Virus record (IMG/VR): IMGVR_UViG_3300031576_000062
Location: 1-51,757 of that record
Length of the DNA stretch: 51,757 nt
Strand: one strand, 5' to 3'
Source of the DNA: a virus
The position numbers and the translations under genes were made by a program. The notes beneath the pieces were generated by a model, which was given only the letters and a program-made list of their open reading frames with translations, searched no databases and was not told the origin of the DNA. Below are positions 6,429-25,355 of the stretch, piece after piece. Each line of letters starts with the position of its first letter. The first letter of the stretch is position 1.

Positions 6429-7062
6429 AACTGTGGCGTATCGCAAAGAACGGGCAATGAGGCTAAAGTTGATTGGTGTAAGCGAGTATCAAATTGCGAA
6501 AGAGCTAAAAATCAGTCAAGGCATGGTCAGGAACTACATTCGAGCCGTGCTGGAAGAATTGCGGCAACAATGGATCAAGAACGCCAAAATGTACGCCGTG
6601 ATGGAATTGGAGAGATTAAACACCATCCAGCGCACTCTTTGGCCGATCTTCCAGAACGAGAGTAACAAATTCACGGTAACGCAGAGGCTTGGGGCCGTAG
6701 ATAGGATCATCCGTTGCATCGAACTTCGCGCTGAATTGAATGGATTGAAAACTTGCGGGATCGGGTTCGGAGAGTCGGTTGAACCAGTATTTTCTCCAGA
6801 CAATCTCAGGAAGGCATTAAAAGACGATGTCACGATCCGCGAAGCCGTCGGATACGACGCCGCCCTCGGGCGAATCACCGCCGTTAGAGAAATCAGTATT
6901 GACGCCGGCAGGGTACGCCCTCAGGACAAGCAAGGGGTTGTGGAAGTCAGCCCGGCACCTGGAATTCATAAATTACTACCTGATGCAGGCCCTAGCAAGG
7001 AAGGTCAAAAGATTGATGATATTCGTCCCACCGAGGAACGGAAAAACGATGCTGGTCAGTAG
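6316..7062 (+). CDS. terS: Putative terminase small subunit (HTH protein)
   Basis: 248 residues. A helix-turn-helix lies near residues 55-75 (VSEYQIAKELKISQGMVRNY), followed by helical oligomerisation-like segments. Position directly before the large subunit and the HTH fit a DNA-recognising small terminase, though sequence alone does not prove it. CAGGAGG at 6302-6308 supports ATG 6316, inside the methyltransferase gene. The last 236 bases overlap the large-subunit reading frame, an unusually long overlap, so one of the two ends may be mis-called. The low-complexity C-terminus is the doubtful part. Confidence 0.6.
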   Translation: MKKLTELSVRPVPGETVHASVPEHDGTSKNGTRNYTIETVAYRKERAMRLKLIGVSEYQIAKELKISQGMVRNYIRAVLEELRQQWIKNAKMYAVMELERLNTIQRTLWPIFQNESNKFTVTQRLGAVDRIIRCIELRAELNGLKTCGIGFGESVEPVFSPDNLRKALKDDVTIREAVGYDAALGRITAVREISIDAGRVRPQDKQGVVEVSPAPGIHKLLPDAGPSKEGQKIDDIRPTEERKNDAGQ

Positions 7063-9232
7063 GTACTTCCCTTGCACTTGGTTGGGCTACTATCCCAACG
7101 AACGAGTCTTGCTTGCGACCTACGAAGCAAAGTTTGCGGCTGACCTCGGCAAGAGGGCGCGGGACGTGTTTATTGCAACAGGCAAAGAACTGTTCGGGCT
7201 TGAAGTAAGAAAGGACACGAAAGCCGCTACACATTGGTCCATCCAGGGGCATGAAGGCGGGATGCAAACAGCCGGGGCAGGAGGCCCGATCACGGGAAAA
7301 GGAGCAGATTGTGTCGCTGAGGGGACTGTGGTTCAAACGAACAAAGGCAGTATCCACATTGAGGACTTGCAATCGCTACCCGTTCCCGTTAAGATTATGT
7401 GCTATGGAGAACACGGAATCGAATTCAAAGCCATACAGGCTATCCGAAGAATTGAGGGCCGCAGGTTACTCAGGATTACCACTACCAGCGGAAGAAGTCT
7501 TGATGTTACGCCGGACCATCAAGTCTATTCAAACGGGAAATACGTCGAGGCGAATGTTCTTTCCGCCGGCGATCCTCTTTTGCTCGCTGTGCAAAAAAAG
7601 ACATATTGTTCCAGCATACGCACTATTCAAAAGGCAAAAACTCGGATGTGTGGACAATTATTGTTCTGTCGAATGTTCGAGGATTCATCATTCGACAAAA
7701 AACCGGCGACAGTGCAGAGTTTGCAGATTGCCAGTCAAGAAGAAAACCAGGGGATATTGCGAGTCATGCAGACCAAAGGCCAAGGGAAGAACGCCAATAT
7801 ATCCTGCAAAAGAAACCGTCTGTCCAATCTGCAACAACATTTTTATGGCTCGATGGAAGGGCAAATCTCCAGGAAAACATGCAATTTATTGCAACAGGTT
7901 CTGTGCCCGGAGAGCACATTCGAGAAGGATGGCAGGGATTGGGAATCCGAGGTGGAAGCATGGGGCAACCCCACTCCGAAAACAACCACATTCAGCGAAG
8001 GCATTTCGACTGATGCGGCCAATCGTTTTGGAGAGAGACAGAAAAAGGTGCGTGGTGTGCAATTCACAGAAAAATCCTCACGTTCATCACATCGATGGAT
8101 GGCCGATGAACAACGCATCAGAGAACCTGGTTACATTATGTTCCAAGTGCCATCGCACTCTCCATGCAGCGCAGGATTCAAAGCCGTCAAGGATTCTGTG
8201 GCCATGGTTAAAAGAGTACGCCAAACGTCCGTTGTGTACGACATCCAAGTTGAGGAAAATAGAAACTTCTTTGCGAACGGGATTCTGGTCCACAACTGCC
8301 TAATCCTGGATGATCTTGTCAAGAATGCAGAAGAAGCGAACTCTTACACCCAACGGGAACACATGTGGGAATGGTTGGAGTCGGTTGCAATGACGCGTCT
8401 TGAACCTAAAGGGGTGGTGGTGATAATTACAACTCGATGGAACCGAGACGACGTTTGCGGGCGACTCCTTGACCGCCAACCGGCGGACTGGACCGTGATT
8501 TCACTCCCTGCGATTGCGGAAGAAAATGACATCCTTGGAAGGAAACCAGGAGAGGCATTGTGGCCTGAAAGATGGCCCATCGAAGAACTCGAACTTATAA
8601 AAAGGAAGATTTCAAGATACTGGTGGTCCGCGCTGTACCAGCAACATCCGATGCCGCGTACGGGGATACTTTTCAGCATGGACAACATCCAAAAATGGAA
8701 AATCGAAACGTTTCCAACAGACATCCATTACTGCCGAGGATGGGACTTGGCTTCGTCCGAAAAACAGGTCAACAAATCCGATCCCGACTACACAGCCGGC
8801 ACGCTTGCTGGAATTGATACACGCCCAGAAGTCCCGATCCTGTACGTCAAGGATGTTGTGCGTGGACAATGGGGAGCGCCTGAACGGGATGCGATGATTA
8901 AGCGGACGGCGATGAAGGATGGTCCTGCGGTCAGAGTCTTTGTTGAGAAAGTTGGAGCCTATAAAGAAGCCGCTGAAAGGGTCCAAAAGCTTCTGGCTGG
9001 GATAGCTATCGTTGAGACAATTTCTCCGACGAAAGACAAAGTGACGCGGGCCGATTTCCTCACGCCGTGTTTCAGCGCCGGCAACGTCGTGATCGCAGAA
9101 GACGATTGGAACGAGCAATGGATCAATGAATTCACGGAATTCCCGGAGGGCGTCCATGATGACCAGGTAGACAGCTTGGCCCTCTGTACCCATGAATACG
9201 ATGTCTTTTCGGAATTCGGCTTTTCGATCTGA
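6827..9232 (+). CDS. terL: Terminase large subunit precursor with intein
   Basis: 801-residue precursor. Extein residues 1-161 include the family's N-terminal segment (LTPAGYAL) and Walker A PPRNGKT at 68-74. An intein occupies 162-490. The extein resumes at Cys491 with the Walker B motif LILDDLVK, followed by TTRWNRDD and the RuvC-like nuclease domain (GWDLASS, an acidic residue in VFVEKVG, and HDDQVDSLAL at the end). Splicing would give a 472-residue terminase that cuts and pumps DNA into the prohead. The start is uncertain: ATG 6827 lies within the small-subunit gene, and TTG 6899 is an alternative just before the conserved region. Confidence 0.93.
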   Translation: MSRSAKPSDTTPPSGESPPLEKSVLTPAGYALRTSKGLWKSARHLEFINYYLMQALARKVKRLMIFVPPRNGKTMLVSRYFPCTWLGYYPNERVLLATYEAKFAADLGKRARDVFIATGKELFGLEVRKDTKAATHWSIQGHEGGMQTAGAGGPITGKGADCVAEGTVVQTNKGSIHIEDLQSLPVPVKIMCYGEHGIEFKAIQAIRRIEGRRLLRITTTSGRSLDVTPDHQVYSNGKYVEANVLSAGDPLLLAVQKKTYCSSIRTIQKAKTRMCGQLLFCRMFEDSSFDKKPATVQSLQIASQEENQGILRVMQTKGQGKNANISCKRNRLSNLQQHFYGSMEGQISRKTCNLLQQVLCPESTFEKDGRDWESEVEAWGNPTPKTTTFSEGISTDAANRFGERQKKVRGVQFTEKSSRSSHRWMADEQRIREPGYIMFQVPSHSPCSAGFKAVKDSVAMVKRVRQTSVVYDIQVEENRNFFANGILVHNCLILDDLVKNAEEANSYTQREHMWEWLESVAMTRLEPKGVVVIITTRWNRDDVCGRLLDRQPADWTVISLPAIAEENDILGRKPGEALWPERWPIEELELIKRKISRYWWSALYQQHPMPRTGILFSMDNIQKWKIETFPTDIHYCRGWDLASSEKQVNKSDPDYTAGTLAGIDTRPEVPILYVKDVVRGQWGAPERDAMIKRTAMKDGPAVRVFVEKVGAYKEAAERVQKLLAGIAIVETISPTKDKVTRADFLTPCFSAGNVVIAEDDWNEQWINEFTEFPEGVHDDQVDSLALCTHEYDVFSEFGFSI
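7310..8296 (+). mobile_element. Intein in terminase large subunit (329 residues)
   Basis: The intein begins with Cys (block A, CVAEGTVVQTNKG). Block B is GRSLDVTPDHQVYS, block F is VVYDIQVEENRNFF, and it ends with HN before a +1 Cys, as in class 1 inteins. The insertion point is immediately before the Walker B strand, a classic conserved site for selfish elements. About 97 N-terminal and about 25-30 C-terminal residues look like splicing domain. The roughly 200 residues between them, read in the terminase frame, resemble no endonuclease. The HNH endonuclease is in the +1 frame instead. Confidence 0.9.
7554..8303 (+). CDS. HNH endonuclease nested out of frame inside the intein
   Basis: 249 residues read in the +1 frame relative to terL. 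There are four Cys-rich zinc-binding clusters (C10/C13 with C37/C41; C54/C57 with C69/C72; C90/C93 with C113/C117; C166/C169 with C196/C199). An HNH nuclease core at 166-204 (CVVC...HVHHIDG...ENL...CSKCH) has H179, N191 and H200 as the likely metal/catalytic set. ATG 7554 has GAGG four bases upstream; ATG 7404 and 7503 are alternatives. The stop falls five bases beyond the intein's 3' boundary. It is probably the homing endonuclease of the intein, translated separately or by frameshift, or a relic displaced by two compensating indels. Confidence 0.75.
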   Translation: MFFPPAILFCSLCKKRHIVPAYALFKRQKLGCVDNYCSVECSRIHHSTKNRRQCRVCRLPVKKKTRGYCESCRPKAKGRTPIYPAKETVCPICNNIFMARWKGKSPGKHAIYCNRFCARRAHSRRMAGIGNPRWKHGATPLRKQPHSAKAFRLMRPIVLERDRKRCVVCNSQKNPHVHHIDGWPMNNASENLVTLCSKCHRTLHAAQDSKPSRILWPWLKEYAKRPLCTTSKLRKIETSLRTGFWSTTA

Positions 9233-9268: not shown

Positions 9269-11197
9269 GTGGGACTCATAAAGCTCGCTCGGGCCGCTCT
9301 TGGACGCGCCGCCTCCTCGGTTGGCCTCTCCAAGACCCACGATGCTGATTTTACCGACCTCTCTTTTGGGGGTTGGGAAATTCTTCTCGGGCCTGGTCGA
9401 AGGCGGGCCGATGATGTTTTCCAGGGAATGACGGTCCAGGGGCTTGAAAATGCTTACCGCGTCCATTCCGTCGTCTATGCTTGCATCCACAGAATCGTAA
9501 CGGCTTCCTGGGAAGCTCCGGTACAGGTTGGTTTTGAATCAAAAAGCGGGAACTTCACGGAAGCCGAGAACCATCCCCTTTCAGACCTTTTTTCGAGGCC
9601 GAACAATTTCCAGAGCTACGCCGAATTCTTGGGCAATCTCGAAATCTTCCTTCTCACAACCGGGGAAGCCATCGCCTTTAAACTCAGGGACAGGCAGGGA
9701 ATCATTCGGCAACTTCTACCCATCCCTTCAAGCCACGTCTCGCCAAGATTCGACGGAGAAAATGGAGAGATCACGGATTATAGATTGAGGGTCAGCAAGA
9801 GGAAAACTATCGATGTTCCACCAAGAGACATATTCCGTGTGTATTACCCCGACCCGACGCATATTCACGAACCCCTTGCGCCGATGCAGGCGGCGGCACG
9901 AGATTACGCGGTGGACAGGGAGCGCGAAAGTTTCATGGCAGAAATGCTGGTTCATGCCCACATTCCCGGATTGACGATCCACACGGACAGGGCCATGACC
10001 GAGGAGCAGAAAGATTTGGTTCGGAAAACCTTGACCTCTTCAATCGGGCGCGGAATGAGGGGTCGTCCGCTTTTTGTCCACGGTCAAAACACAAAGGTTG
10101 AAGTGAATCAGCCGTTGAAAGACCTGGATTGGCCGGGGTTGACGGGATTGATGGAGTCGAGGATTTGCAGCACCTTTGGAGTCCCGCCACAAGTGATCCA
10201 CCTGAGAATTGGTTTGGAGCATGGCGCTTTCTGCCTCCCGGCAAATTCCAGAATTCGGACCGAAAAAGGCCTGCGCCGAATTCATTCAATTGTTCCAGGG
10301 AAAGATCGGGTCTGGACATACAAAGATGGAGACATCCATCTTGCCGATGTAAAAGTGGCTGGAAAGACGGGTCGGAAACTGCTCTATGAATTGCATACAA
10401 AATACAAGACGATCAGGGCTTCCGCAAACCACCCTTTTCTCGCCAGAAAAGCAAGCAACTCCAGATCTCTGAATCAGTCTCAGTCCTTTGGATTGACTTG
10501 GGTTCCCCTAGAGGATTTGTCGCCTGGGGATAAGGTTGTAGTCTGCGACAAACCTCTCGGGAAATTGAAGAAGCTGCCAAAGAAAAACTGGACGAATCAA
10601 CGCCGGCTTTCTCAAAATTTGATTCTATGCACGATTCTTGACATCGTTCCAATCTGCGAAGAAGATGTTTACGATATCGAAGTTGAAGAAACGCATAATT
10701 TCATCGCAGAGGGATTCGTCGTCCACAATTCTAATTACGAGCAGGCAGAAAGGACTTTCTATCGAGGGACGATGGTTCCCATGTGGAAGATCATGGAGAC
10801 GGCCTTCACGAGGTCGCTTATCCAGGACGAACAGCGCGAGGATCAGGATTTGATTATCCGCCATGACCTTTCGGAATGCCGACCTTTGAAGGAAGATGTT
10901 GTTGCGGCAGCTGATCGTGCCACGCGTCTTTTCGATGCGGGGATCATCAATAGAAACGAAGCTCGTAGAATTATTGGAGAGGAGCCGATGGAAGGCGGAA
11001 AGGGCGAAGTCTTGGTGAACCCAAACTCGCAGGCAAGGAGAAATCCGACCCAACCCTCATTTGGAATCCCGAATGAATCCCCATCGAGGGAGGAAGCCGG
11101 TAGGCGTAGGCCAACAGATGATCGTTCCATTGACAACGGTAAGGTCGCGCTGGACTTGACTCGCCACCTTAACCGTGGTATTTCTTCTGGAGAATAA
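9269..11197 (+). CDS. Portal protein precursor with mini-intein
   Basis: 642-residue precursor of an HK97-type portal. It has the N-terminal VHSVVYACIHRIVTASWEAP and a central LPIPSSHVSPR. The conserved GLEHGAF|SNYEQAERTFYRG block is where the intein inserts, and the C-terminal segment is Pro/Arg-rich. The portal is the dodecameric ring at the capsid vertex through which terminase pumps DNA. A GTG start at 9269 is used; no strong ribosome site is visible and TTGACT lies 30 bases upstream. Removing the intein leaves 476 residues, a normal size. Confidence 0.92.
   Translation: MGLIKLARAALGRAASSVGLSKTHDADFTDLSFGGWEILLGPGRRRADDVFQGMTVQGLENAYRVHSVVYACIHRIVTASWEAPVQVGFESKSGNFTEAENHPLSDLFSRPNNFQSYAEFLGNLEIFLLTTGEAIAFKLRDRQGIIRQLLPIPSSHVSPRFDGENGEITDYRLRVSKRKTIDVPPRDIFRVYYPDPTHIHEPLAPMQAAARDYAVDRERESFMAEMLVHAHIPGLTIHTDRAMTEEQKDLVRKTLTSSIGRGMRGRPLFVHGQNTKVEVNQPLKDLDWPGLTGLMESRICSTFGVPPQVIHLRIGLEHGAFCLPANSRIRTEKGLRRIHSIVPGKDRVWTYKDGDIHLADVKVAGKTGRKLLYELHTKYKTIRASANHPFLARKASNSRSLNQSQSFGLTWVPLEDLSPGDKVVVCDKPLGKLKKLPKKNWTNQRRLSQNLILCTILDIVPICEEDVYDIEVEETHNFIAEGFVVHNSNYEQAERTFYRGTMVPMWKIMETAFTRSLIQDEQREDQDLIIRHDLSECRPLKEDVVAAADRATRLFDAGIINRNEARRIIGEEPMEGGKGEVLVNPNSQARRNPTQPSFGIPNESPSREEAGRRRPTDDRSIDNGKVALDLTRHLNRGISSGE
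10232..10729 (+). mobile_element. Mini-intein in portal protein (166 residues)
   Basis: Starts at Cys322 of the precursor (CLPANSRIRTEKG), has block B ASANHPF, block F VYDIEVEETHNFIAEGF and terminal HN, with Ser as the +1 residue. There is no room for a homing endonuclease, so it is a mini-intein that would splice but could not home by itself. Confidence 0.92.
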
Positions 11198-11848: not shown

Positions 11849-11974
11849 ATGAAGATCAAGCCGAAGTCGTCTGGCGGCATGATCGAAAACGGGACGTTTC
11901 ATGCGCTCGTCGGTTGGTTGATGAAGGAGGTCGAGAGGCTCGAACAAGAAGTCAAGGCTCTGAAAAAATCATGA
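11849..11974 (+). CDS. 41-residue coiled-coil protein
   Basis: Encodes a basic N-terminus and a heptad-like C-terminus (MKEVERLEQEVKALKKS). A strong GGGAGG at 11838-11843 lies five bases before ATG 11849, and the stop overlaps the ATG of the fibre gene. The ribosome site and coupling support reality; a chaperone or trimerisation role for the fibre is only a guess. Confidence 0.5.
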   Translation: MKIKPKSSGGMIENGTFHALVGWLMKEVERLEQEVKALKKS

Positions 11975-13335
11975 AGCACGGCGTCGTCGAGATCAACGAG
12001 ATCGCATCGAACTTTCGCCCGAGCGTGGCGAATGATGAGGTCTTCGATCTCGGCCTTGGGACTCGGAGGTTCCGAGGGCTCCACTCCAAGTTTGCCCGCG
12101 CCGTCGGGGGTCCAGGGTCAATCGCGAATCGGCTGAATGGCCTCACGTCAGGCTATGCCGACGCAGGTTCGATTCTTGATAATTCCGGTGGTGGGTTCCT
12201 CGATGGGTACGTCGCAAACAACAGCGACATGCTTTCTGATTCAAATTCTGCGTTTGCTGCTGGTGAGGCGAGGAATTACGGGTCGGCTCAAATTTATGGT
12301 CAGGGTTCATTTTTCCAGGGGCAGGCTTACAACTACGGATATATCCAGGTCGGCGGTGTCGGAACGTTTTTTCAGGGGCAGGCATCGGATTACGGACAAG
12401 TCCAGCTTTACGGAACCGGGGTTTTCAGCCAAGGGGTTACCGCATATTACGGGACCATGTACGCTGGCTCGGAGGCCGAGTTCATCCAAGGGTCCTGCAA
12501 GAATTACTCTTACATGCAGACCCTCTATGAGGGTCAATTCATCCAAGGATTCGTCAACAATTATTCCCAGATGTACGCCTCTGGTCGGGGAGCGTTCATC
12601 CAAGGGTTCTGCGAGAACTATTCCTACATGAAGGCGTATGCTTCCGCAACTTCCGTCCAGGGATATTGCGCGAACTATTCCTACATCCAAGCCCAAGGAG
12701 AGGGATCAAGCGCGAGAGGATTCGCCAACAACTTTTCCCAAATCACAGCCTACGGTCGGGGGGCCGCCGCGCAAGGCTACTGTTCAAGTTATAGCAGAAT
12801 CTACACCAACGGCGACGGAGCTTTCGCGCACGGGTCCACCTATGGGTATAACGCCTACATCGAAGCGATGGCGAATGGGGCTCACGCTTCAGGGTTCGCA
12901 CAGACCAACATTTATGCTGGAGGCGCAGGCTCCTTCGCTCACGGATACGCCACCTATGACTATGGAATTTTCGCTGGCGGATATGGGTCTGTCTGCATGG
13001 GTTACGCCGACACCGCAGAAATCAGAACTACAGCGAAGAACGCTTTTCAATGGGGGCCTGGCGTAAATGCAATCGCCGACTCCTTCAAATTCGGAGACGG
13101 CGGTTTCAGGGTCCGAAACAAACAGAACAACGCCCCTGCTTCTCTCGTCAACGGCGATTGGTGGCTTGATACAACCGGAAGGGCGCATTTACGGTCTGAC
13201 GCGGTAACATGGAATTTCGATCAGCAGGCTCACATCGCGGACCCTACGGGAGGCGTTGTCATTGACGCCGAAGCCAGGACCGCGATAAATTCTATCCTTG
13301 ACGCGCTTGAAGTTTTGGCTATTCTTGCTCCATGA
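11971..13335 (+). CDS. Beta-solenoid repeat fibre-like protein
   Basis: 454 residues. An N-terminal segment of about 65 residues is followed by sixteen repeats of 19 residues (66-369). Their consensus is roughly G-x-F-x-Q-G-x-x-x-N-Y-S-x-M-x-x-x-G. A C-terminal domain (FGDGGFRVRN ... GDWWLDTTGRAHLRS) then ends in a helical LDALEVLAIL tail. Regular short repeats with Gly and aromatic ladders suggest a trimeric beta-roll like adhesin heads, so this is probably a head or tail fibre. Most repeats end in Asn-Tyr, giving an exposed tyrosine ladder. The downstream coupled genes make PAPS and transfer sulfate. ATG 11971 overlaps the previous stop. Confidence 0.75.
   Translation: MKHGVVEINEIASNFRPSVANDEVFDLGLGTRRFRGLHSKFARAVGGPGSIANRLNGLTSGYADAGSILDNSGGGFLDGYVANNSDMLSDSNSAFAAGEARNYGSAQIYGQGSFFQGQAYNYGYIQVGGVGTFFQGQASDYGQVQLYGTGVFSQGVTAYYGTMYAGSEAEFIQGSCKNYSYMQTLYEGQFIQGFVNNYSQMYASGRGAFIQGFCENYSYMKAYASATSVQGYCANYSYIQAQGEGSSARGFANNFSQITAYGRGAAAQGYCSSYSRIYTNGDGAFAHGSTYGYNAYIEAMANGAHASGFAQTNIYAGGAGSFAHGYATYDYGIFAGGYGSVCMGYADTAEIRTTAKNAFQWGPGVNAIADSFKFGDGGFRVRNKQNNAPASLVNGDWWLDTTGRAHLRSDAVTWNFDQQAHIADPTGGVVIDAEARTAINSILDALEVLAILAP
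12166..13077 (+). repeat. Sixteen tandem 57-bp coding repeats
   Basis: The 19-residue protein repeats correspond to a 57-base period with one 20-residue and one 18-residue unit. Bases have diverged, so selection acts on the protein pattern rather than on DNA identity. Confidence 0.8.
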
Positions 13336-13349
13336 GGAGGTAAAAACCA

Positions 13350-13562
13350 ATGCCCGCTCCCGTTTACACGTCTGCCCCGAATTTGGTCAACCGGCAACTC
13401 AACGCCGATGAGGTCAACCGGCGCATCGAGCAGATGGAGTTGCGAGTTACCAAGATGACTGGCAGAAAGACGAAGATTGATACGGAGATCGCGGCCTGCA
13501 CGGCCCGATGCGATGCCTTGAAGGCCGCCCGGACGGCCGCTGGGATTCCGCCTCCTCCATGA
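13350..13562 (+). CDS. Small helical protein
   Basis: 70 residues with a central coiled coil (EVNRRIEQMELRVTKMTGRK) and a Pro-rich end. GAGGAGG precedes ATG 13350. The stop overlaps the APS-kinase start, so it belongs to the fibre/sulfation operon. Function unknown; a fibre accessory is possible. Confidence 0.6.
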   Translation: MPAPVYTSAPNLVNRQLNADEVNRRIEQMELRVTKMTGRKTKIDTEIAACTARCDALKAARTAAGIPPPP

Positions 13563-14080
13563 AGCCTTGCGTGATTTGGCTGACGGGCCTCCCGTCGAGC
13601 GGAAAGACGACGCTCGCCGGCGAGTTGGGGAAGGCAATTCGCCCATCAATCCTCTTGGACGGGGATCGGGTGAGGGAGGGGTTATGCAAAGGTCTTGGAT
13701 TCTCGGATGAGGGGCGAGCTGAAAATATTCGGAGGGCGGCGGAAGTGGCGGTCTTGGCTTGCGAATCCGGGATCACGCCCATTTGCTCTTTTGTGAGTCC
13801 GACGATCGCGGCTCGGGCGGCGGCCCGGGGAATTGTGGAAACTTGGGGTTTCAGATTCGTTGAGGTTTTCCTTGATGTTCCAGTTTTCGTTTGCGAGGCG
13901 CGGGACCCCAAGGGTTTGTGGCTGAAAGCAAGGAGCGGACTTTTGCCTGGCCTTACTGGAGTCGGGTCTCCCTACGAGAGGCCGAAGAATCCCGAAATCC
14001 TTGTCCCGTGGGTTCCTTTGGGCGAAGCCGAGAAACTGGTGTTGCACAGCCTTGAATTGGAACCAGAATACTCGATATGA
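13559..14080 (+). CDS. cysC: Adenylylsulfate (APS) kinase
   Basis: 173 residues, the normal length of a stand-alone CysC. It phosphorylates APS at the 3' position to make PAPS, the universal sulfate donor. Visible motifs are the P-loop GLPSSGKTT (10-18), LDGDRVREGL, LGFSDEGRAENIRR, the FVSP motif with the phospho-acceptor-type Ser80, and the RDPKGLWLKAR ... GLTGVGSPYE...NPEI block. All are well conserved, so the enzyme looks active. The start overlaps the upstream stop and the end overlaps the sulfotransferase start (ATGA both times). The host must supply APS. Confidence 0.92.
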   Translation: MKPCVIWLTGLPSSGKTTLAGELGKAIRPSILLDGDRVREGLCKGLGFSDEGRAENIRRAAEVAVLACESGITPICSFVSPTIAARAAARGIVETWGFRFVEVFLDVPVFVCEARDPKGLWLKARSGLLPGLTGVGSPYERPKNPEILVPWVPLGEAEKLVLHSLELEPEYSI

Positions 14081-14922
14081 AATTCCACGCGATTGCGGGC
14101 TTGCCGAGGGCTGGGTCAACGCTCCTATGCAACGTCCTCGCGCAGAATCCAAGATTTCAAGTTTCTTCAACAAGCCCTCTGATTTCGGCTCTTGGGGCAT
14201 GTTCTGTTGCGCTTTCAAATTCGGTTGAATTCAGGAACCTGCTGAACTCTAACCGCGAGTCCTCTGAATCAAGGCTCCAAAGGGCAATCAAAGGGTTTGC
14301 TGAGGGATGGTATTCGGGTTCGGATGTAGTCCTTGACAAAAGTCGGGGTTGGATGAGGCATGTCGGGATGTTTAGAAAAGTGTGGCCGGCAGGAAAAATT
14401 CTTGCGCTGGTCAGAGATCCAAGAGAAGTCCTAGCCAGCATTGAGAAGCAAAATCACAAAACTCCTCTTTTCAATGAAGGACAAGGTCCCATCCCGCAAT
14501 CAGAGAGGTTTAGACGCCTGCTTTCTCCTAATGGTGTTGTCGGCGGTCCGATGATGTGGATTGAAGATTCGATCAAGCGCAGGAAAGCCATCGGAGAAGG
14601 GATTATTTTCGTGCAGTTTGAATCTTTGTGCGAGAACCCGGAGAGCGTAATCGGTAAAATTTATGAAAAGCTCGGGGAGGAGCGTTTTGCCCACGATCTG
14701 AACAACATCCAGAAATCATGCGATGAACCAGATGGATTCTGGCTTTGGAAATATCCACATGACGGAGTAGGACGCATTGGGCCGCAGGCCGGAGATTGGA
14801 TGGAATGGGTACCAAAAGTGGTGGGCGTCTCTCTGGCGAGAATGTTTCCAGTTTTCTTCCAAACTTTCGGATATGTGGTTAAAGAAATCTCTCGGGATGG
14901 CGTCCTGGCGGACGTGCTTTAG
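14077..14922 (+). CDS. PAPS-dependent sulfotransferase
   Basis: 281 residues. The N-terminal GLPRAGSTL (8-16) is the 5'-phosphosulfate loop and LALVRDPREVLAS (109-121) the 3'-phosphate-binding motif of the sulfotransferase fold. The acceptor cannot be read from sequence; it could be tyrosines or glycans on the virion or a host surface molecule. Coupling to cysC and the neighbouring tyrosine-rich fibre point to a virion substrate (inference). It is followed by an intergenic promoter candidate, so it closes the operon. Confidence 0.85.
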   Translation: MKFHAIAGLPRAGSTLLCNVLAQNPRFQVSSTSPLISALGACSVALSNSVEFRNLLNSNRESSESRLQRAIKGFAEGWYSGSDVVLDKSRGWMRHVGMFRKVWPAGKILALVRDPREVLASIEKQNHKTPLFNEGQGPIPQSERFRRLLSPNGVVGGPMMWIEDSIKRRKAIGEGIIFVQFESLCENPESVIGKIYEKLGEERFAHDLNNIQKSCDEPDGFWLWKYPHDGVGRIGPQAGDWMEWVPKVVGVSLARMFPVFFQTFGYVVKEISRDGVLADVL

Positions 14923-16951: not shown

Positions 16952-17899
16952 ATGAACCTCATTCTTGATGGACTCCAAGGATTTGGGGACCAGATTTACC
17001 AAAGGCCGTTTGTCCGAACCGCACTCCAAAGATGTCAGAACGTTTTCCTTCGTACCCCCCTGCCGGAGTTCTATTGGGACATCAAATCGGGCGGCAGGCT
17101 GAAATTCGTGAAATGGGGGACCAGGCTTCGCACACAGAGAGTCCTTGAATCTGGAAAGCCAGGCCATGTATGGTCAAAGCCGCCTTCGCTTACTGGAAAA
17201 CGTCGTCTGGCCTACACCGGCCGGGACCTACGGAGAGGAGTTTCAATTCTTGGAAGCATTAGGAAGCATTGCGGATTTGTCCCAACGCAAGAATTCTCTT
17301 TCCCTTTGAAGGAGAACTGGTACAATCATGCCCGGACGGCCCTACGATGCGCAAGTATCTCGGAAGGAGAACCTTTTGTGGCCGTCCATTGGCCTACGAT
17401 CCGTAAGGAATGGAGAAACATTTCAAGAAATCCCGATCCAGATGGATGGAGGGCTCTTGTCAAATGGGTGAACACTCGGTATAAGACTCTTTCGATCAAC
17501 AACGTGGATGGTCGGCAGGAGGTCTTTGACGGGATTCCTGAACAAGCCAGCTCGAAGTACGATGCTGGCGAATGTCCTGTGCCGGTGATCGCGGCTATTC
17601 TAAGCATGGCGCAGTTCTGCATCACAAGTCCGGGTCTTTGGCTTCCACTAGGATTATCCGTCTCTGCGAGGGTCGTTCTTGTCGTTGGAGGGTATCTTCC
17701 GGCAAGGTTGATGGTGGAACCGTGGATGGTCAAATCTGATTTCCTCGTGATCGAACCAGAAAAGCCCTGCTGTTGTGTCCAACATGAGCATTCCTGCGAA
17801 AGACGATTCGATGTCGGTAGGGCTTTACATGCCCTCGCAGGATTCTGCCGCATTGAGGCCGCTTCTGGCGGACGGCGGACTTCTGTGGTCAGCGCATAG
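16952..17899 (+). CDS. Glycosyltransferase-like protein (heptosyltransferase/GT9-like)
   Basis: 315 residues. The start (LDGLQGFGDQIYQRPFVRTAL) and a late segment of the form PVPVIAAILSMAQFCITSPG...PLGL resemble GT9-type heptosyltransferase folds, where a GD motif opens the first domain and a GP/SPG loop lies in the second. The C-terminus carries a cysteine cluster (CCCVQHEHSC). It probably decorates a virion or host glycan. The 3' end overlaps the next gene by about 90 bases. Family assignment is moderate. Confidence 0.55.
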   Translation: MNLILDGLQGFGDQIYQRPFVRTALQRCQNVFLRTPLPEFYWDIKSGGRLKFVKWGTRLRTQRVLESGKPGHVWSKPPSLTGKRRLAYTGRDLRRGVSILGSIRKHCGFVPTQEFSFPLKENWYNHARTALRCASISEGEPFVAVHWPTIRKEWRNISRNPDPDGWRALVKWVNTRYKTLSINNVDGRQEVFDGIPEQASSKYDAGECPVPVIAAILSMAQFCITSPGLWLPLGLSVSARVVLVVGGYLPARLMVEPWMVKSDFLVIEPEKPCCCVQHEHSCERRFDVGRALHALAGFCRIEAASGGRRTSVVSA

Positions 17900-18470
17900 G
17901 GGCGTCGGGTACGAAAGGGTCGTGGAACCAGACGTAGAACCATATTGGGACCATTACGAGCAACTTGAATTCTCTGGCCCGATCACTAAAGAACTGAATA
18001 AATTCCGGGTGGAGTTTGTTGCAAAACACACTATGGGATTGTTATTGGACATCGGAATCGGCAATGGAGCCTTTTTGAGAGCAAGAAATGAGACAGGAGC
18101 GCCAACGAGGGGATTCGACGTCAACTCCAAGGCTTGCGCGTATCTCAAAAAGATTGGAGCCTTCACCGAGATATTCAGCGAGTCGGCGGTCGAATCTGCG
18201 ACTTTCTGGGATTCGCTTGAACACATTGAGGACCCGTCCGCAGTGCTTGCCAAGATCGAACATTTTGCCTTCGTCTCCCTGCCGATTTTCTATGATTTGA
18301 CAGGCGTTCTCAGGTCAAAGCATTACAAGCCGAAAGAACATCGCTGGTACTTCACAAAGCCGGGCCTGATCTGGTATTTTGAGACGTGCGGATTCAGGTG
18401 CATCGATATTTCTCATAAGGAAAGCGACCTCGGGCGTCAAGACGTAGGAACGTTCGCCTTCTCACGGTGA
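17811..18470 (+). CDS. Class I SAM-dependent methyltransferase
   Basis: About 219 residues. LLLDIGIGNGAFL is the SAM-binding motif I, GFDVN the motif II acidic loop, and FWDSLEHIEDP the post-motif typical of small-molecule or sugar methyltransferases. The start is uncertain: GTG 17775 and ATG 17784, 17811 and 17829 are in frame and all overlap the upstream gene. Placed after a glycosyltransferase-like gene, it may methylate the added sugar (inference). Confidence 0.75.
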   Translation: MSVGLYMPSQDSAALRPLLADGGLLWSAHRGVGYERVVEPDVEPYWDHYEQLEFSGPITKELNKFRVEFVAKHTMGLLLDIGIGNGAFLRARNETGAPTRGFDVNSKACAYLKKIGAFTEIFSESAVESATFWDSLEHIEDPSAVLAKIEHFAFVSLPIFYDLTGVLRSKHYKPKEHRWYFTKPGLIWYFETCGFRCIDISHKESDLGRQDVGTFAFSR

Positions 18471-18474
18471 AGCG

Positions 18475-19101
18475 ATGGCAAACGAAGCAAAGAGGCAACA
18501 TTCAATCCTGCGGAGGGGACTTCGCACATGGGAGCCCTGCTTCGTCGGGCCTGGTCAGATCGTCGGACGCCCCGGAAACCTTCCGGTCTGCGGATACGAT
18601 CTTGCAGATTTCTCAATCCTCACGGTTGGCGACGCTCCGGTGCTTGTTGTGAAGACCGAATTGCAGGATTTTTTTGGCGAGGAATTGCAGGACGACGAGG
18701 AGCTTCATCAGATTCTTGAAGCGGAAATGATCTATCAGTTTCAATTCTTTATTTTCTTTGGGGCGACGACAGGAGAACCAGGAATCAAGGTCTCTGTTGA
18801 CGGTCCAGTGGGTCCTCAGTACATCATCTACCACACTTGCATTGCGGATACGTTGGGTGACGCTTTGATCCCTGGCGGAAGCACGGTCCACAATGAGTAC
18901 AATCAAGTCGAGGAAGCCGAATACCAATCTCCGCCAAACACGGTTGTTGAAATCAAGGGTTCGATCTTCACGGGCCTAAATAAAGGTCCGATCATAGCGA
19001 GGTTCGCGCAACTGAATTCTTCTGACGATCCTTTGGTGATTAGGAAGGGAAGCTACCTTCTTGTTCAACCCTATCTCCCGGCTCCGATCATTGGCTCCTG
19101 A
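18475..19101 (+). CDS. Virion protein with shared N-terminal anchor
   Basis: 208 residues. Its first 40 residues (LRTWEPCFVGPGQIVGRPG..PVCGYDL) align with the start of the next gene's product, suggesting a common docking domain. The rest is beta-rich with two Cys. Its end overlaps the next ATG. Likely a fibre or decoration protein; the specific role is unknown. Confidence 0.6.
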   Translation: MANEAKRQHSILRRGLRTWEPCFVGPGQIVGRPGNLPVCGYDLADFSILTVGDAPVLVVKTELQDFFGEELQDDEELHQILEAEMIYQFQFFIFFGATTGEPGIKVSVDGPVGPQYIIYHTCIADTLGDALIPGGSTVHNEYNQVEEAEYQSPPNTVVEIKGSIFTGLNKGPIIARFAQLNSSDDPLVIRKGSYLLVQPYLPAPIIGS

Positions 19102-19796
19102 TGAAGCTACTGAAAAACGACGTACTTATCCGGGACCTCCAGAGGTGGAAGCCCTGCAATCTCGGAGAGGGCGAATTCATTGGGAGGCCGGTCGGCCAAC
19201 AGGCCGGCTGTTATCCAATCGAGGAAATCGAGCCCGAACTCCTAGTAACCGAAGATGATGATATTGTCCCGCTTCCTGAACTTGTTTTCTCAAACCAATC
19301 TTCCAGGGTGGCGCAGACCGTATTGGAAGGGGGGTCCTATTTCTTGCGGACGAAAACGAGGTTCAATAGGGTCTTGTTCTCAATTGCGACCAAGAGCGGA
19401 AGCCCTTCTATAGACTTGGCGATCTATCAATTCGAGGATGGAACCTCCTCTAGTTTAGTTGAAAAGAAAGCCAGTATCAGTGGAGTTGTAATATCTACAG
19501 TTGGGATTTATAGTAAAGCGCTTGTTGAAGGCGAAGTGGTTCTGTTGCCGGGACTGATCTATGTTCTGTGGGGCAAAAGCGCAGGAGGGGTTGGAAACAA
19601 TTTCACCATGAGAACCTACGATGTCCAGAGCATAGATATTGTAACGACCAACGTTCCGACAGGCCTTCATCCTGTGTCCTACACAACTGCGCTTCCTGCG
19701 ACCTCAACGCCGGCAACTTTTGATCCCACAATCGGGGGCGACGTGTCCGAATCGATTCTCGACGTGGTTCCGATCATAAGGCTACGAAAGGTCTGA
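19101..19796 (+). CDS. Virion protein, paralogous N-terminus
   Basis: 231 residues. The N-terminal LQRWKPCNLGEGEFIGRPV...GCYP mirrors the preceding protein. From about residue 70 there is a beta-sandwich domain of carbohydrate-binding type (VLEGGSYFLRTKTRFNRVLFS). Two proteins with one anchor and different ends suggest alternative surface heads. Confidence 0.6.
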   Translation: MKLLKNDVLIRDLQRWKPCNLGEGEFIGRPVGQQAGCYPIEEIEPELLVTEDDDIVPLPELVFSNQSSRVAQTVLEGGSYFLRTKTRFNRVLFSIATKSGSPSIDLAIYQFEDGTSSSLVEKKASISGVVISTVGIYSKALVEGEVVLLPGLIYVLWGKSAGGVGNNFTMRTYDVQSIDIVTTNVPTGLHPVSYTTALPATSTPATFDPTIGGDVSESILDVVPIIRLRKV

Positions 19797-20068: not shown

Positions 20069-20443
20069 ATGTCTTTTTTCATAGACGAGCTTCGACGGTC
20101 CTTCTCAACAACGGACGAAGGGCCATTTTCCCTCCTTCCGTTTGCGATGCCGGAGAATTCCAGCGTGAAGTTTGAGTGCGAGATTGCGGTGATTGACCTG
20201 GACAACTTACAATCTTCCGAATACCATTTTCTCGGATCAGCTACGCGATTTTCATCGAACGATCCGTTAGTGAACGTCGAATACAAGGAGTTGATGAAGA
20301 ACGACGGCATCGGCCTTTCACAGGACCCTAAAATCGCAAGAAACGAAAAGAGCATTGTCATCGCATTTTCAGGCAAGCAAGGCGTTCTGATCGATTGCGC
20401 TCTTCGGATGAAGGTCTGGGGCGGCGATGCGGAGGTAAGCTGA
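20069..20443 (+). CDS. Hypothetical virion-region protein
   Basis: 124 residues, beta-rich, no recognised family. It is the first gene after a promoter candidate, and its stop overlaps the protease start (TGATG). No clear ribosome site precedes ATG 20069. Confidence 0.55.
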   Translation: MSFFIDELRRSFSTTDEGPFSLLPFAMPENSSVKFECEIAVIDLDNLQSSEYHFLGSATRFSSNDPLVNVEYKELMKNDGIGLSQDPKIARNEKSIVIAFSGKQGVLIDCALRMKVWGGDAEVS

Positions 20444-21804
20444 TGCCGCTTCCAAAGCCTCGTTCTGGAGAGGAAAAGGATACGTGGCTATCTCGGTGTA
20501 TGTGGAATCCAAAGATGAACGAGGAGTTTCCAAAGCGAGATCGAAGATTCGCGGTCTGCCAATCTCAATGGAGGCGGCACATGGACGGCAAGACGGAACA
20601 CCATCACACGCACAATTCAAACATGATGGACAGCGAACCTTCTTGGGCTTCCGTCGAGAAGGAATCCCTACCGAGGGAGGCCTTTGCTGAAATAGGCGAG
20701 CCGGACAAGAAATCAACTTGGGGGTTTCCTCACCACTTCATCAGCGAGGGATCTGAGAAAGACGATAACGGAATCTGGACGAATGGAACCATGTTCCTCC
20801 ACAAAGGCGGGCTGAATGCCGCATGGGCGGCGGCCCAGGGAGCGCGTTCGGGCCAGGAGGCGAGCCAGGCCGTGAAGGACCACCTTCAGGCTCACCGCAA
20901 GGCAATCGGGATTGCAGACGAGGACGAGAAGGCGATGAAATCGCTTTCCCAGGTCTACAAGCATCGGTTCAAGCACATGTCGGAAGGAAACGGGCTGGAC
21001 CCAAAGGATATTCGTCGGGAGCTTTTCACGCCCGATGCGAAGTTGTGGGCAAAACGGCTGCATGACACCAATGACGCTGATCCCGGATACCTCGAAGGAT
21101 ACGCCGCCTACTTCAACAACATCGACCACGGCGACGAGGTAATCCGGCCGGGTTCATTCGCAAAGACGATGGAGAGGATCACGGCGAAGAAGGTGCCGCT
21201 GATGGGTCGCCATTTCGCAGATGGGGGCGGAGGTTTCGACGTGATCGGTGTCCTGACTTCTGGAAACGAGGAACCCGAAAAGGGGCTGGCGATCAAGGCC
21301 GACTTTGGCTCCGACGATTATTCCCAGGTCTTTAGAAGTAAAGTCGCGGATGGCCTGATCCGAGGACTTTCCATCGGCTACATTCCCGTCCGGTATGGAT
21401 TCCTGCGCCAGGACAACAAAATGATTCTCGAACATTTCGAGATTAAGCTGATGGAAGTCACCGTGACTCCGTTCCCGATGAACGAATTGGCCGAAATCAC
21501 ATCGGCCAAATCGTTCCAGAACGGTCTGGAACGCATCCTGCGCTACGCGAAGCGCATGAACCTCGACCTCAAAGAGACACCGGCAATGACCGGCCGTCTG
21601 CCAGAGGACCTCGTCGGTTCCAAGGATGCAATTGCGGCCCTGCTCGGCGAACTCGGCCGGCTGACGGGCCGCACTTTGGATCTCCAATCCGAAGGCAAGC
21701 CGAAGGTGGACGCGGGGGGCTGTCCCCTCACGGATACCGACCTCCACTTGATCCAATTGGGGATTGAGCAGGCCGAGACCGACTTGTTGTCGATTGGAGG
21801 TTAA
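20443..21804 (+). CDS. Prohead protease, HK97 U35 family, with N-terminal extension
   Basis: 453 residues. The N-terminal 160 residues form an extension (PLPKPRSGEEKDTWLSRCM..., then a His-rich linker and an Ala-rich helix). The protease domain spans about 190-370, with His257 in MGRH and Ser310 in RGLSIGY as the likely catalytic pair. The C-terminal 90 residues may act as scaffold. It matures the capsid by removing the delta domain of the major capsid protein. The start overlaps the previous stop. Confidence 0.88.
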   Translation: MPLPKPRSGEEKDTWLSRCMWNPKMNEEFPKRDRRFAVCQSQWRRHMDGKTEHHHTHNSNMMDSEPSWASVEKESLPREAFAEIGEPDKKSTWGFPHHFISEGSEKDDNGIWTNGTMFLHKGGLNAAWAAAQGARSGQEASQAVKDHLQAHRKAIGIADEDEKAMKSLSQVYKHRFKHMSEGNGLDPKDIRRELFTPDAKLWAKRLHDTNDADPGYLEGYAAYFNNIDHGDEVIRPGSFAKTMERITAKKVPLMGRHFADGGGGFDVIGVLTSGNEEPEKGLAIKADFGSDDYSQVFRSKVADGLIRGLSIGYIPVRYGFLRQDNKMILEHFEIKLMEVTVTPFPMNELAEITSAKSFQNGLERILRYAKRMNLDLKETPAMTGRLPEDLVGSKDAIAALLGELGRLTGRTLDLQSEGKPKVDAGGCPLTDTDLHLIQLGIEQAETDLLSIGG

Positions 21805-21808
21805 ACCC

Positions 21809-23251
21809 ATGCCGTCGAAAATTCTGGAAGGGCTCGTCGGATCGGCTCTGTTCGATGCCAAACGCATCGGAGAGCTGATGACCGGCGTTCAGGCGGAGCG
21901 CAAGACGGCCTTCGAGAAGGCCATTGATGCCCGCAAGGAAGGCAAGGAGGAGGAAGCCAAGAGCTTCCTGAAGATCGAGGCCGACAAGGCCGAGGACTAC
22001 AAGTCCTTGAAGGAACACTGGGACTTCGTGCAGAAGCAGAGGACCGACGATGAGCTGGTCAAGCAGGTGCAGGAGGCCGCCAAGGCCAAAGGCGCCATCA
22101 GCGACCGAAGGACGCGTGTTTCGGACACGGAACCCAACGGGTGGCGCGAGAAGGAGTCCGCCAAGGAGAAGGCCTTCGTCAATTATCTCAACGACGGCCA
22201 GGAAGGGCTTTCTGGCCAGGAATCCGATCTGCTACAGCCGCGCAACGAACGGCTCTCGAAGGTGGCGAGGGGTGGCAAGGTCATTCCCAAGCGGTTTGTC
22301 GCCGCGATGTTCGGGAAGACCTACGACGCCGCTCGTCGGGCCTATGGGAAGGCGATCTTCTCGTTCGACGACGATACCACCAACCCTTCTGATGCCGAGA
22401 ACCTGGTTCCGCCTGACTTCCGAAGGGACATGAGGATGCTTCCGTGGGAAGATCCCCAGGTCCTGAATCTCGTCGAGATCATCGAGAACGCGACGGGCGA
22501 AGTTACCTGGCCGGGCCTGGCACAGACGGACACCGATCAGTTCGGGGGTGTCTCCTTCGAGTGGACGGGTGAGGGGGCTGACAAGCATGAGACGGAGCCG
22601 AAGTTCGACCAGAGGCGGATCACGAACCACGAACTCACGGGCTACACCGAGGTTTCAGAGAGGGCCCTGAGTCGGAGTGTCATCGATCTCGAAGCCTTCC
22701 TGCGGAGGCTTTTCGACGCCTCGATGCGCTACCAGTTCGAGAACGTCATCATCGCCGGCACGGGTGTCGCCCAACCGGAAGGCATCGTCACGAACGCCGA
22801 CATCTTCCACGTGGCCCGCGAGACGGCGGGCGAAGTCCACGACACCGACCTCGTGCGGTTGGAGCACGCGCTTCGGCCGATGGTTCGGAGGAACGCGGTC
22901 TACGTTGTCCACGACAACGTGATCAAGGAATTCCGAATCCAGAAGGACACGACGGGAAGGACGCTTGCGCACGGCGTCCTGACGTCGAGCATCCAGAGTG
23001 GACCCCCGGACAGGCTGAACGGACGCCGGTTCATCCCGACGATCAATCAGCCGGACGTTGGGAGTGAGGGTGACGTGATCTTCGTGGACCTCAGCCAGTA
23101 TTTCTTCGTGATCGAAGACGAGATCACGATGGCGAGGTCGGAGCACGTCAAGTTCCGCCAGAATCTGATTGCCTTCAAAGTGTTCGCCGTCGTTGGGGGC
23201 CGAATCATGGAACCCCAGGCCGCCGCGATCCTCGAAGGCGCTGGCTCCTGA
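21809..23251 (+). CDS. Major capsid protein, HK97 fold
   Basis: 480 residues. Residues 1 to about 110 are a highly charged helical delta (scaffold) domain (EKAIDARKEGKEEEAKSF). The HK97-fold core runs from about 190 with ITNHELTGYTEVSERALS, an E-loop/N-arm region, and the end FKVFAVVGGRIMEPQAAAIL. GGAGG lies before ATG 21809. Codon choice here is GC-richer and more regular than in neighbours, as expected for a highly expressed gene. Confidence 0.92.
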   Translation: MPSKILEGLVGSALFDAKRIGELMTGVQAERKTAFEKAIDARKEGKEEEAKSFLKIEADKAEDYKSLKEHWDFVQKQRTDDELVKQVQEAAKAKGAISDRRTRVSDTEPNGWREKESAKEKAFVNYLNDGQEGLSGQESDLLQPRNERLSKVARGGKVIPKRFVAAMFGKTYDAARRAYGKAIFSFDDDTTNPSDAENLVPPDFRRDMRMLPWEDPQVLNLVEIIENATGEVTWPGLAQTDTDQFGGVSFEWTGEGADKHETEPKFDQRRITNHELTGYTEVSERALSRSVIDLEAFLRRLFDASMRYQFENVIIAGTGVAQPEGIVTNADIFHVARETAGEVHDTDLVRLEHALRPMVRRNAVYVVHDNVIKEFRIQKDTTGRTLAHGVLTSSIQSGPPDRLNGRRFIPTINQPDVGSEGDVIFVDLSQYFFVIEDEITMARSEHVKFRQNLIAFKVFAVVGGRIMEPQAAAILEGAGS

Positions 23252-23318: not shown

Positions 23319-25355
23319 ATGGGATGGTTCAGAGTTTCGCGACCCATTGTCTTGAAAGACGCAAAGGGCCGCCCGATCCAGGTCCGTGAAGGACAACTGG
23401 TCAATATCTCCAGCATCCATGAGGTCCGCCGACTGATGGCAACCGGAGACATCATCCCGCACCATCTTTCCGCCATTCGGCACGGCCCTCCTGGTTCCCC
23501 GTCGCAACCGCTCTCAAAAACATTCAGGATTGGAATTTTCATCGCAACCTCCCCTTTCTATTCCGGTGGAAGGTATTTCTTGTGGCAATACGCATGGGCC
23601 TGCGCCCAACTTGGCGCGGAGGTCTACATCATCACAACTTTGGAGCCGAAGTGGCAATCCGATTTCCCGACTTCAAAAAACATCAACGTCGTGATTCAGC
23701 CGAAGAATTCGATTCCGCCGGACCTCGATCTTGTCGTCTTGGATGGAAAAAGCTCGACAGGCAGGGTCGGAATCGAATACGCAAATCGGACCGGAACGCC
23801 AGTTTTTAGCTTCTCGTTTGAGACTCCGAATTGGGTTGAACAGTTTGCGCCGGAGATCGCAAAGAAGGTCCCAAGCGTCAAAGAATTCTACGACGCATCG
23901 AGTTTATGCGTTCCGATCAGCCTGGAAGGAGAACGAACCTTCAAGGAATGGTATCCGAGGCCGATCCAGACGCATGTTCTCTATCCCAGAATCAACACCT
24001 TCGCCAGCCCGAGACGGCCAGGAGGGCTTCCGAAAAACAGAGACTTCATGCTTTGGTCTGGGAGGGCTTCGCCCTACAAAGGAGCGAAAGACGCATGGGA
24101 GGCGGTTTCAAGTTTCGATGGGGTCCTCGACTTTGTGACCGTCGGGGCCGCGATGAAGGAAAAAGGAAACGCGCTTCACAAGATTTGGAATCTTGGAAGA
24201 TGTAGCGATTCTGAAAAATTCGGCGCGATGGAGGAAGCCAAGGCTGTAATCCAACCTTCAAAATTCGAGGGGTTCGGATTGGTTCCTGGAGAGGCATTGT
24301 CGGTTGGGACGCCCTGCATTGTCTACGATCTTCCCGTTCTGCGGGAAGTTTACGGCAATTCGTTAATTTATGTCCGGCATGGCGACAAAAAGGAGTTGGC
24401 GGCCGCCGTTGCAAAAGCCGCAACCCAGGAGAAGCCAAAAATCAACAAATTCGATTTCAGACACCGATTCGGGATTGAGTCCATGCCAAAAGATGTTGCA
24501 AGAATTCCGATGCACGGCTTCGGAAGCCGAACCACAACGGCGGTGATGATCGCCTACTACGGGCCGACTATTCATGAAGCCATAGAGGCGATTTACAGTC
24601 ATGTTGAATGTATCAGGATCGCTTACGGACCCATCGAACTTTGGAAGAATTTCCCCAGCGATGGAACCCTTCAAAGGATTCGTGATTTTCCAGACCCCCA
24701 AAAGAAAATCTTCGTCGAGGACCGGCCTCTCTGGAAAGACAAAAGGGAAATGAGAGAATGGACCACGCAGAAGATCGACACGTCGCATGTCATGGTTGTC
24801 GATGCCGATGAAATCTGGACCGGGTTTCCTGCGTGGAAGTCCGCCGAGATTGACTTTGGATCGCCGCGTTGGGTTCACTTCTGGCACGATCTTGACCATT
24901 GCGTAGTCAACCCTTCGGGATGGGGAATGTCGAGATGGGGAGAGGCGATTTCGCCATTCGGAACCGCCGCGCCTCATTATCGCTGGTCCTGGTGGCGGCC
25001 TTCATACCGCTGGACTTCGCATTGCATTGCGGCCGACAGGATGGCGAGGCCAATCTGTTCTGAAATCACGAACAAAGGGTCTGCCCTGCGAGTCCCAGGG
25101 GCCGTGATCTGGCATTTGGGCCACGTCTTGGATCGGAAACTGATGAAGGCAAAGCACCAGTTTTATCTTGATCGGGACGGGAATGATCCCAAGCGCAGGA
25201 AAAGGATGGAGATCTGGCACAACTGGAATGGGAAGCTCGGTGACTGTGGAGATGGGGTTATAAAGCAGGTCAATTTTGAGGTCCCGGAGATCGTTCGGAG
25301 GGCCTACAACAAAATCAACGCGCCGGCCCTTGCTTTGGCCGCCGCCGGAGGGTAA
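23319..25355 (+). CDS. Bifunctional glycosyltransferase (GT4 plus GT2-like)
   Basis: 678 residues. The first 60 (VLKDAKGRPIQVREGQLVNI...EVRRLM) look like a phage head-associated domain rather than an enzyme. Residues about 68-385 form a GT4-type transferase with GRASPYKGAKDAW and the E-x7-E motif region KFEGFGLVPGEALSVG. Residues about 395-660 form a second, GT2-like domain with VVDADEIW as a DxD-type metal site. It is inserted between the capsid and connector genes, so it probably glycosylates a head protein (inference). Confidence 0.8.
   Translation: MGWFRVSRPIVLKDAKGRPIQVREGQLVNISSIHEVRRLMATGDIIPHHLSAIRHGPPGSPSQPLSKTFRIGIFIATSPFYSGGRYFLWQYAWACAQLGAEVYIITTLEPKWQSDFPTSKNINVVIQPKNSIPPDLDLVVLDGKSSTGRVGIEYANRTGTPVFSFSFETPNWVEQFAPEIAKKVPSVKEFYDASSLCVPISLEGERTFKEWYPRPIQTHVLYPRINTFASPRRPGGLPKNRDFMLWSGRASPYKGAKDAWEAVSSFDGVLDFVTVGAAMKEKGNALHKIWNLGRCSDSEKFGAMEEAKAVIQPSKFEGFGLVPGEALSVGTPCIVYDLPVLREVYGNSLIYVRHGDKKELAAAVAKAATQEKPKINKFDFRHRFGIESMPKDVARIPMHGFGSRTTTAVMIAYYGPTIHEAIEAIYSHVECIRIAYGPIELWKNFPSDGTLQRIRDFPDPQKKIFVEDRPLWKDKREMREWTTQKIDTSHVMVVDADEIWTGFPAWKSAEIDFGSPRWVHFWHDLDHCVVNPSGWGMSRWGEAISPFGTAAPHYRWSWWRPSYRWTSHCIAADRMARPICSEITNKGSALRVPGAVIWHLGHVLDRKLMKAKHQFYLDRDGNDPKRRKRMEIWHNWNGKLGDCGDGVIKQVNFEVPEIVRRAYNKINAPALALAAAGG

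Follow-up and report, generated by a model that had tools for sequence, protein, structure and literature searches.

A sulfotransferase gene coupled to a fibre gene

The IMG/VR virus record IMGVR_UViG_3300031576_000062 (51,757 bases, analysed over its whole length and hereafter called the window) is the genome of a tailed phage, in which the gene for a sulfotransferase (ST) dependent on 3'-phosphoadenosine 5'-phosphosulfate (PAPS) lies in one coupled cluster with the gene for a beta-solenoid fibre. We consider it probable that this ST sulfates the fibre encoded upstream, or sugars on it, with PAPS that the phage helps to make. This view is based on the genes and their coupling, the enzyme families, the residues of the PAPS site, the periodicity of the solenoid, and the linkage of ST and solenoid genes relative to controls, all of which are observed. 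The recurrence of ST genes beside genes for repetitive surface proteins suggests an undescribed way of sulfate decoration.

The ST loci compared (designated by L numbers) were taken from more than 600 viral and more than 590 bacterial stretches, of which the 80 most similar to the window ST were used in each case. For the linkage counts, STs were merged at 85% identity and clusters with less than 2.5 kb of flank were left out; the repeat-motif threshold was reached by one of 228 shuffled open reading frames (ORFs) of the window. Single-sequence scans of viral contigs with ST, kinase and fibre gave nothing usable, and the results come from alignment-based searches. A beta-roll repeat protein was found within 4.5 kb in 27 of the 46 viral ST clusters, compared with none of 39 regions at randomly drawn positions of the same records (one of the 40 regions drawn had no usable centre gene). 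In 18/46 clusters the repeat protein gene shared the strand of the ST gene and stood at most two genes upstream of it (controls, 0/39), and no such protein was found at the 30 viral clusters that contain a kinase for adenosine 5'-phosphosulfate (APS) and no ST. An earlier annotation, made from the letters of the window without database searches (the sequence-only reading), had called for a survey of cysC-ST-fibre synteny; the fibre-ST linkage proved to recur widely, with zero counts in both matched controls.

The order fibre, small protein, ST, with the kinase absent, occurs in L071, L073, L089, L101, L105 and L239, and in L074 and L082 the ST gene directly follows or overlaps the fibre gene. 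The major head protein gene is closely followed by the fibre gene in L101 and, after a single intervening gene, in L071, and in L073 the fibre gene lies between neck and sheath-like protein genes; thus, some of these proteins may be head or neck fibres. Reverse transcriptase genes are located downstream of the fibre-ST pair in L082 (10837-11868, RVT_1 match) and L099 (10606-11652, recognized by eye), and together with variable-looking target genes they are possible diversity-generating retroelements.

Bacterial ST genes have comparable neighbours. A protein of at least 200 residues rich in G, S, T, N and A was encoded within the two nearest genes on either side in 31/46 bacterial ST clusters and in 1/40 controls, the latter being hand-chosen round positions on known long contigs, from part of 50 genomes, and not random draws. 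At the 80 bacterial loci the ST gene often adjoins a gene for a giant, repetitive surface protein; the neighbours include two-partner-secretion (TPS) exoproteins, YadA-type adhesins and others. TPS, transporter or GLUG proteins were present at 16/80 bacterial ST loci and 0/40 controls (p = 9e-4), by itself a modest enrichment, and 50 of these bacterial genomes contain 122 TPS domains as background. Pfam detected TPS, GLUG and ESPR domains in L162, L178 and L199 and a YadA head and stalk in L166; the L181 protein resembles a YadA-type autotransporter by eye and matched no Pfam family at 0.001. In L172, L174 and L182, the ST gene has genes for a TPS transporter and a repeat protein on its upstream side and an APS kinase gene on its downstream side, an arrangement that follows the same logic as the window.

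In a quick IQ-TREE phylogeny of 61 STs, merged at 70% identity under the flank rule so that some linked loci such as L073 were left out, the window ST belongs to a clade of seven viral rows (support 95); the neighbouring clade (support 100) comprises five bacterial rows and one viral row. All 13 rows of the two clades are linked to a solenoid or a G/S/T/N/A-rich protein; over the whole tree, 25/36 viral and 16/25 bacterial rows are linked. We see an even chance that tailed phages and bacteria share a lineage of TPST-like STs whose dedicated task is the sulfation of repetitive beta-solenoid surface proteins, namely virion fibres in phages and, in bacteria, TPS exoproteins, trimeric autotransporters and further repeat proteins. 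In such a lineage the window phage, which carries a donor-making kinase, could sulfate its own virion.

Organization of the gene cluster

The cluster consists of a 41-aa ORF, the fibre gene, a 70-aa ORF, the APS kinase gene and the ST gene, with the portal gene on the 5' side and the head protease/major head protein genes on the 3' side (Table 1). All junctions are ATGA overlaps except for a 14-bp gap 3' of the fibre gene, which contains a GGAGG-like stretch. Reading frames and coordinates bear out the sequence-only reading, in which fibre, small protein, CysC and ST genes stand head to tail with overlaps or minimal gaps. Its placement of the fibre gene within the structural module also holds, specifically for the region from the portal to the head genes, outside the tail module. 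A gap of 52 bp downstream of the ST gene has a promoter-like site, which carries little weight because five such sites occur in 5 kb where 2.2 are expected. The fibre may alternatively start at an upstream TTG (11914) and the kinase at 13508. The 41-aa product is possibly a small coiled-coil partner of the fibre. The 70-aa protein, which appears helical from its sequence, corresponds, by position alone, to the small proteins (89-166 aa) that separate fibre and ST in the six loci of that order listed above.

Table 1. Features of the window in and around the fibre-sulfotransferase cluster
Feature	Position	Strand	Remarks
Portal	9269-11197		
41-aa ORF	11849..11974	+	ATGA overlap with fibre start; no family above cut-off
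Beta-solenoid fibre, 454 aa	11971..13335	+	ATG start; about 13 repeats of 19 residues, tyrosine ladder
70-aa ORF	13350..13562	+	ATGA overlap with APS kinase; no family above cut-off
APS kinase (CysC)	13559..14080	+	ATG start; TIGR00455, PF01583; ATGA overlap with 70-aa ORF
PAPS-dependent ST, tyrosylprotein-sulfotransferase-like fold	14077..14922	+	ATGA overlap with APS kinase
GT9-like glycosyltransferase, possible partner	16952..17899	+	phrog_6804; weak Aah/TibC heptosyltransferase match
SAM (S-adenosylmethionine) methyltransferase, context	17775..18470	+	phrog_6564; pairs with GT9-like gene (16952-18470)
Head protease/major head protein	20395-23251		
GT4-type glycosyltransferase, context	23319..25355	+	Directly 3' of major head protein gene, neck genes beyond

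The sulfotransferase

The assignment of the ST as a PAPS-dependent enzyme, already made in the sequence-only reading, is supported by two Pfam matches above cut-off, PF13469 (5.1e-14, 53.5 vs 27 bits) and PF00685 (1.1e-5, 25.5 vs 22 bits). With its AlphaFold model (13-row alignment, mean pLDDT 87), Foldseek returned tyrosylprotein sulfotransferases (TPSTs) first (E 9e-10), and a second-look aligner gave TPST1/2 and tick TPST Z scores of 21.8-20.4, the next group scoring 16.6. A profile built from the ST of the window and 12 relatives had TPST1 as its best solved match (3e-17). RaxST was left out of all these comparisons. In the 5'-phosphosulfate-binding (5'-PSB) and 3'-phosphate-binding (3'-PB) loops, R11, S14, T15, R113 and S121 are invariant in 35/35 rows, as are K88, R90, W92 and H228. 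Passages of PMC9372746 give H or E as the catalytic base of TPST; in the window ST, the invariant residues H228 and K88 may serve as catalytic base or acid.

The APS kinase and the sulfate donor

The kinase passes the cut-offs of the curated equivalog TIGR00455 for adenylyl-sulfate kinase (165.6 vs 138.7 bits) and of PF01583 (165.5 vs 21.1 bits, 1.2e-48). It contains the P-loop, DGD, ENIRR and RDxKG motifs of APS kinases, matches a strict kinase signature and aligns with human PAPSS1 over its entire length. It is therefore a complete CysC, as the sequence-only reading had it, and judged by its sequence it would make PAPS. No match to ATP sulfurylase (PF01747) was found in the window, so that the host would have to supply the APS.

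The kinase is not a constant companion of the ST. Among 88 viral ST loci the window alone has the strict signature (15 others have looser matches, some of them strong), the records of L071-L077 have no APS kinase match, and 42/50 viral APS-kinase records have no PF13469 match above cut-off. On these grounds we rejected the kinase-ST pair as a conserved unit: the conserved unit is fibre and ST, and the kinase is an extra. From the proposal that donor synthesis and transfer are placed together beside the fibre, the link of fibre and ST is thus retained and the pairing of kinase and ST as a conserved unit is dropped. The pair does occur apart from a fibre in L054, a situation named beforehand as contradicting the proposal, and in L031 a beta-roll fibre lies within reach of the pair. 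In bacteria, 13/80 ST loci carry the strict signature, five of them adjacent to the ST gene, compared with 0/40 controls.

In L030, L080, L119 and L241, the ST gene is accompanied by one for an APS kinase or a kinase-like protein and by genes for DUF2061-type and HxGH nucleotidyltransferase-like proteins. This module of kinase, CTP_transf_like (HxGH) protein and DUF2061 protein with an ST in large phages spans 5917-7394 in L030, 5170-5993 in L080, 6825-9168 in L119 and 6799-8124 in L241, and its HxGH protein could be a minimal ATP sulfurylase. A DUF2061 protein was looked for in the window and not found. A first single-linkage cluster of kinase neighbours (18/58 loci) mixed DUF2061, nucleotidyltransferase and oxygenase-like proteins, and its count was not used.

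The fibre and the possible acceptor

Residues 96-345 of the fibre have a 19-residue period, with 37.7% identity at lag 19 compared with a maximum of 17.3% at any lag in 200 shuffles. Tyrosine accounts for 36 of the 454 residues, mostly at one fixed position of the repeat, and the model is a beta-solenoid (pLDDT 68 overall and above 85 for roughly residues 190-320), in agreement with the earlier description of a solenoid with a tyrosine ladder. The period is that of the 19-residue rungs of TibA/Ag43-like solenoids. Tandem Repeats Finder detected no repeat in the DNA of the fibre gene, and tblastn against the phage collection gave no match. Pfam returned no family at E up to 1, and thus no YadA-type head repeat (PF05658); this repeat was matched by the fibre of the relative L089 (5.4e-7). 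In phmmer, the window fibre falls into one group with those of L071, L072, L075 and L077 and with a single L136 protein, and its C-terminal head is of a kind common to the L071, L075, L077 and L239 fibres.

The suggestion that the repeat tyrosines are sulfated fared less well. The window fibre contains 7.6% tyrosine, compared with 1.4-5.7% in the fibres of 19 relatives; tyrosine may thus be the acceptor here and cannot be the rule for the fibre-ST pair, and a sulfated tyrosine ladder as a general rule was rejected. Furthermore, none of the 36 tyrosines has the acidic context typical of TPST substrates, which is relevant only if the fibre is the acceptor. Hydroxyls of Ser, Thr or sugars are as likely as Tyr to be sulfated. 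Because the window encodes GT9-like and GT4-type glycosyltransferases, a sulfated glycan on the fibre may be conceivable. The GT9-like protein scored 17.2 bits with the Aah/TibC model, below the cut-off of 200; it has relatives in Pseudomonas phages, e.g., PAJU2 and PMG1. The GT4-type protein has about 45 additional N-terminal residues.

Proposed mechanism and alternative explanations

In the proposed mechanism, the ST would serve solely to modify the fibre whose gene lies a short way upstream. During infection, the phage kinase would convert host-made APS to PAPS, and the ST would move the sulfate onto repeated hydroxyls of the solenoid, i.e., Tyr, Ser, Thr or sugars added by phage glycosyltransferases. 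Sulfation would take place before or during virion assembly and would give a negatively charged fibre, presumably carried on the virion. This would be a sulfate counterpart of the Escherichia coli pairs Aah/AIDA-I and TibC/TibA, in which a neighbour-encoded enzyme decorates the rungs of a solenoid adhesin. Sulfation of the virion, as the sequence-only reading suggested, is thus plausible in view of the fibre-ST linkage and the protein-ST-like fold; its tyrosine part and its kinase-ST unit are the parts that we do not retain.

Several results weigh against sulfation of the fibre. The GEET stretch of TPST, presumably the location of its catalytic Glu, has no counterpart in the ST, where the profile alignment places small residues (S/T), and E or D was found at ST positions 31-32 in 0/35 rows, the bacterial rows being locally gapped there. 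Foldseek with the fibre model gave no significant match (best E 0.15); with the second-look aligner, TibC-glycosylated TibA was the top row (Z 23.1), and Ag43 (Z 22.0) and phage tailspikes (Z 21) scored so closely that the comparison indicates a solenoid and singles out no nearest kin. The Fisher values overstate independence, because the STs were picked by similarity to the window ST and are related. Nineteen of the 46 viral ST clusters have no such fibre in reach, and one viral group of the tree (L084, L086, L091, L106, L113, L126, L127 and L132) is unlinked and lies amid sugar and other genes. In T4-like and other large phages, members of this ST family are found in clusters of sugar genes and apart from such fibres.

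The last point would also be expected if the ST modified a glycan or lipid of the host surface during infection or lysogeny, changing a receptor or excluding other phages, with the fibre nearby because both belong to a host-interaction locus. The T4-like relatives lie among glycosyltransferase, carbamoyltransferase and epimerase genes, and two glycosyltransferases and a methyltransferase are encoded near the window ST. We regard this explanation as unlikely, since every row of the window clade and its neighbour clade is linked to a fibre or adhesin, the ST is translationally coupled with the fibre cluster, and its fold is nearest to protein sulfotransferases. Sulfation of the fibre also accounts better than a chance insertion for the order of fibre, small protein and ST repeated across divergent phages, and for the bacterial loci that likewise combine an ST with a repetitive surface protein while controls are near zero. 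It is thus improbable that ST and kinase form a moron, inserted in a variable part of the structural region and functionally unrelated to the fibre, even though the neighbouring structural genes vary among the phages of the relatives and the GC content of the ST gene (49.4%) differs from that of the fibre (54.4%) and kinase (57.3%) genes. Lone APS kinases in viral contigs, i.e., the records without PF13469 counted above, would fit a kinase that is an ordinary auxiliary gene of sulfur assimilation or clears APS, with the ST incidental. This is very improbable for the window, in which the kinase gene is joined to the ST gene by an ATGA overlap and ATP sulfurylase gave no match, and adjacent kinase-ST pairs are likewise found in bacteria.

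If sulfation of such fibres and adhesins is true, it would be a protein- or glycoprotein-sulfation system beyond eukaryotes and Xanthomonas, in which a dedicated enzyme sets the charge of a fibre or adhesin, with a bearing on phage adsorption, biofilms and cell adhesion. The fibre-ST pairs make the idea testable with few genes.

Other genes of the window

Two adjacent proteins (18475-19101 and 19101-19796) have a common N-terminal motif of about 40 residues, LRxWxPCxxGxGxxxGRP, and no family was found for them. The frames of the terminase large subunit (6827-9232) and the portal each apparently contain an in-frame intein-like insert, and an ORF overlapping the terminase frame (7251-8303) has an HNH-like motif.

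Comparison with known systems

To our knowledge, there are hardly any known cases of sulfated bacterial surface proteins or phage virions. Among the titles and abstract openings that searches of the open literature returned, none concerned a link of an ST to tail fibres, trimeric autotransporters, TPS or filamentous hemagglutinin, or to sulfated virions of phages, and the consulted parts of PMC4216712, PMC9372746 and PMC4358343 do not mention an ST-solenoid link.

Fold comparison places the window ST nearest to human TPST1/2 among solved structures (Z 21.8-20.6), in agreement with the top profile match. The two differ in that identity is 18-19%, the residues at the GEET stretch are not acidic, and the fibre tyrosines have no acidic context. 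In genomic arrangement, the window resembles the heptosyltransferase systems, in which the aah and tibC genes adjoin their adhesin genes and the AIDA-I repeat is 19 residues long. As outlined in sections of PMC4358343, Aah/AIDA-I and TibC/TibA are systems in which a transferase modifies a beta-solenoid adhesin, comparable to the window ST and its 19-residue solenoid, whereas the window would use sulfate from PAPS instead of heptose and an ST fold instead of GT-B, and its target would be a phage fibre rather than a secreted autotransporter. The Xanthomonas system of RaxST with RaxP/RaxQ, as portrayed in parts of PMC4216712 and PMC9372746, combines PAPS supply with a TPST-like ST that acts on a cytoplasmic protein target before export, and is similar to the window by this description. 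The RaxST target is a tyrosine of a small peptide, whereas in the window the enzyme is phage-borne and its neighbour is a large solenoid with a non-conserved tyrosine ladder. Finally, in the glycosylated virions of mycobacteriophages, a phage enzyme is thought to decorate the virion proteins of the phage itself, as we propose for the window, with sugar rather than sulfate and with other enzyme families.

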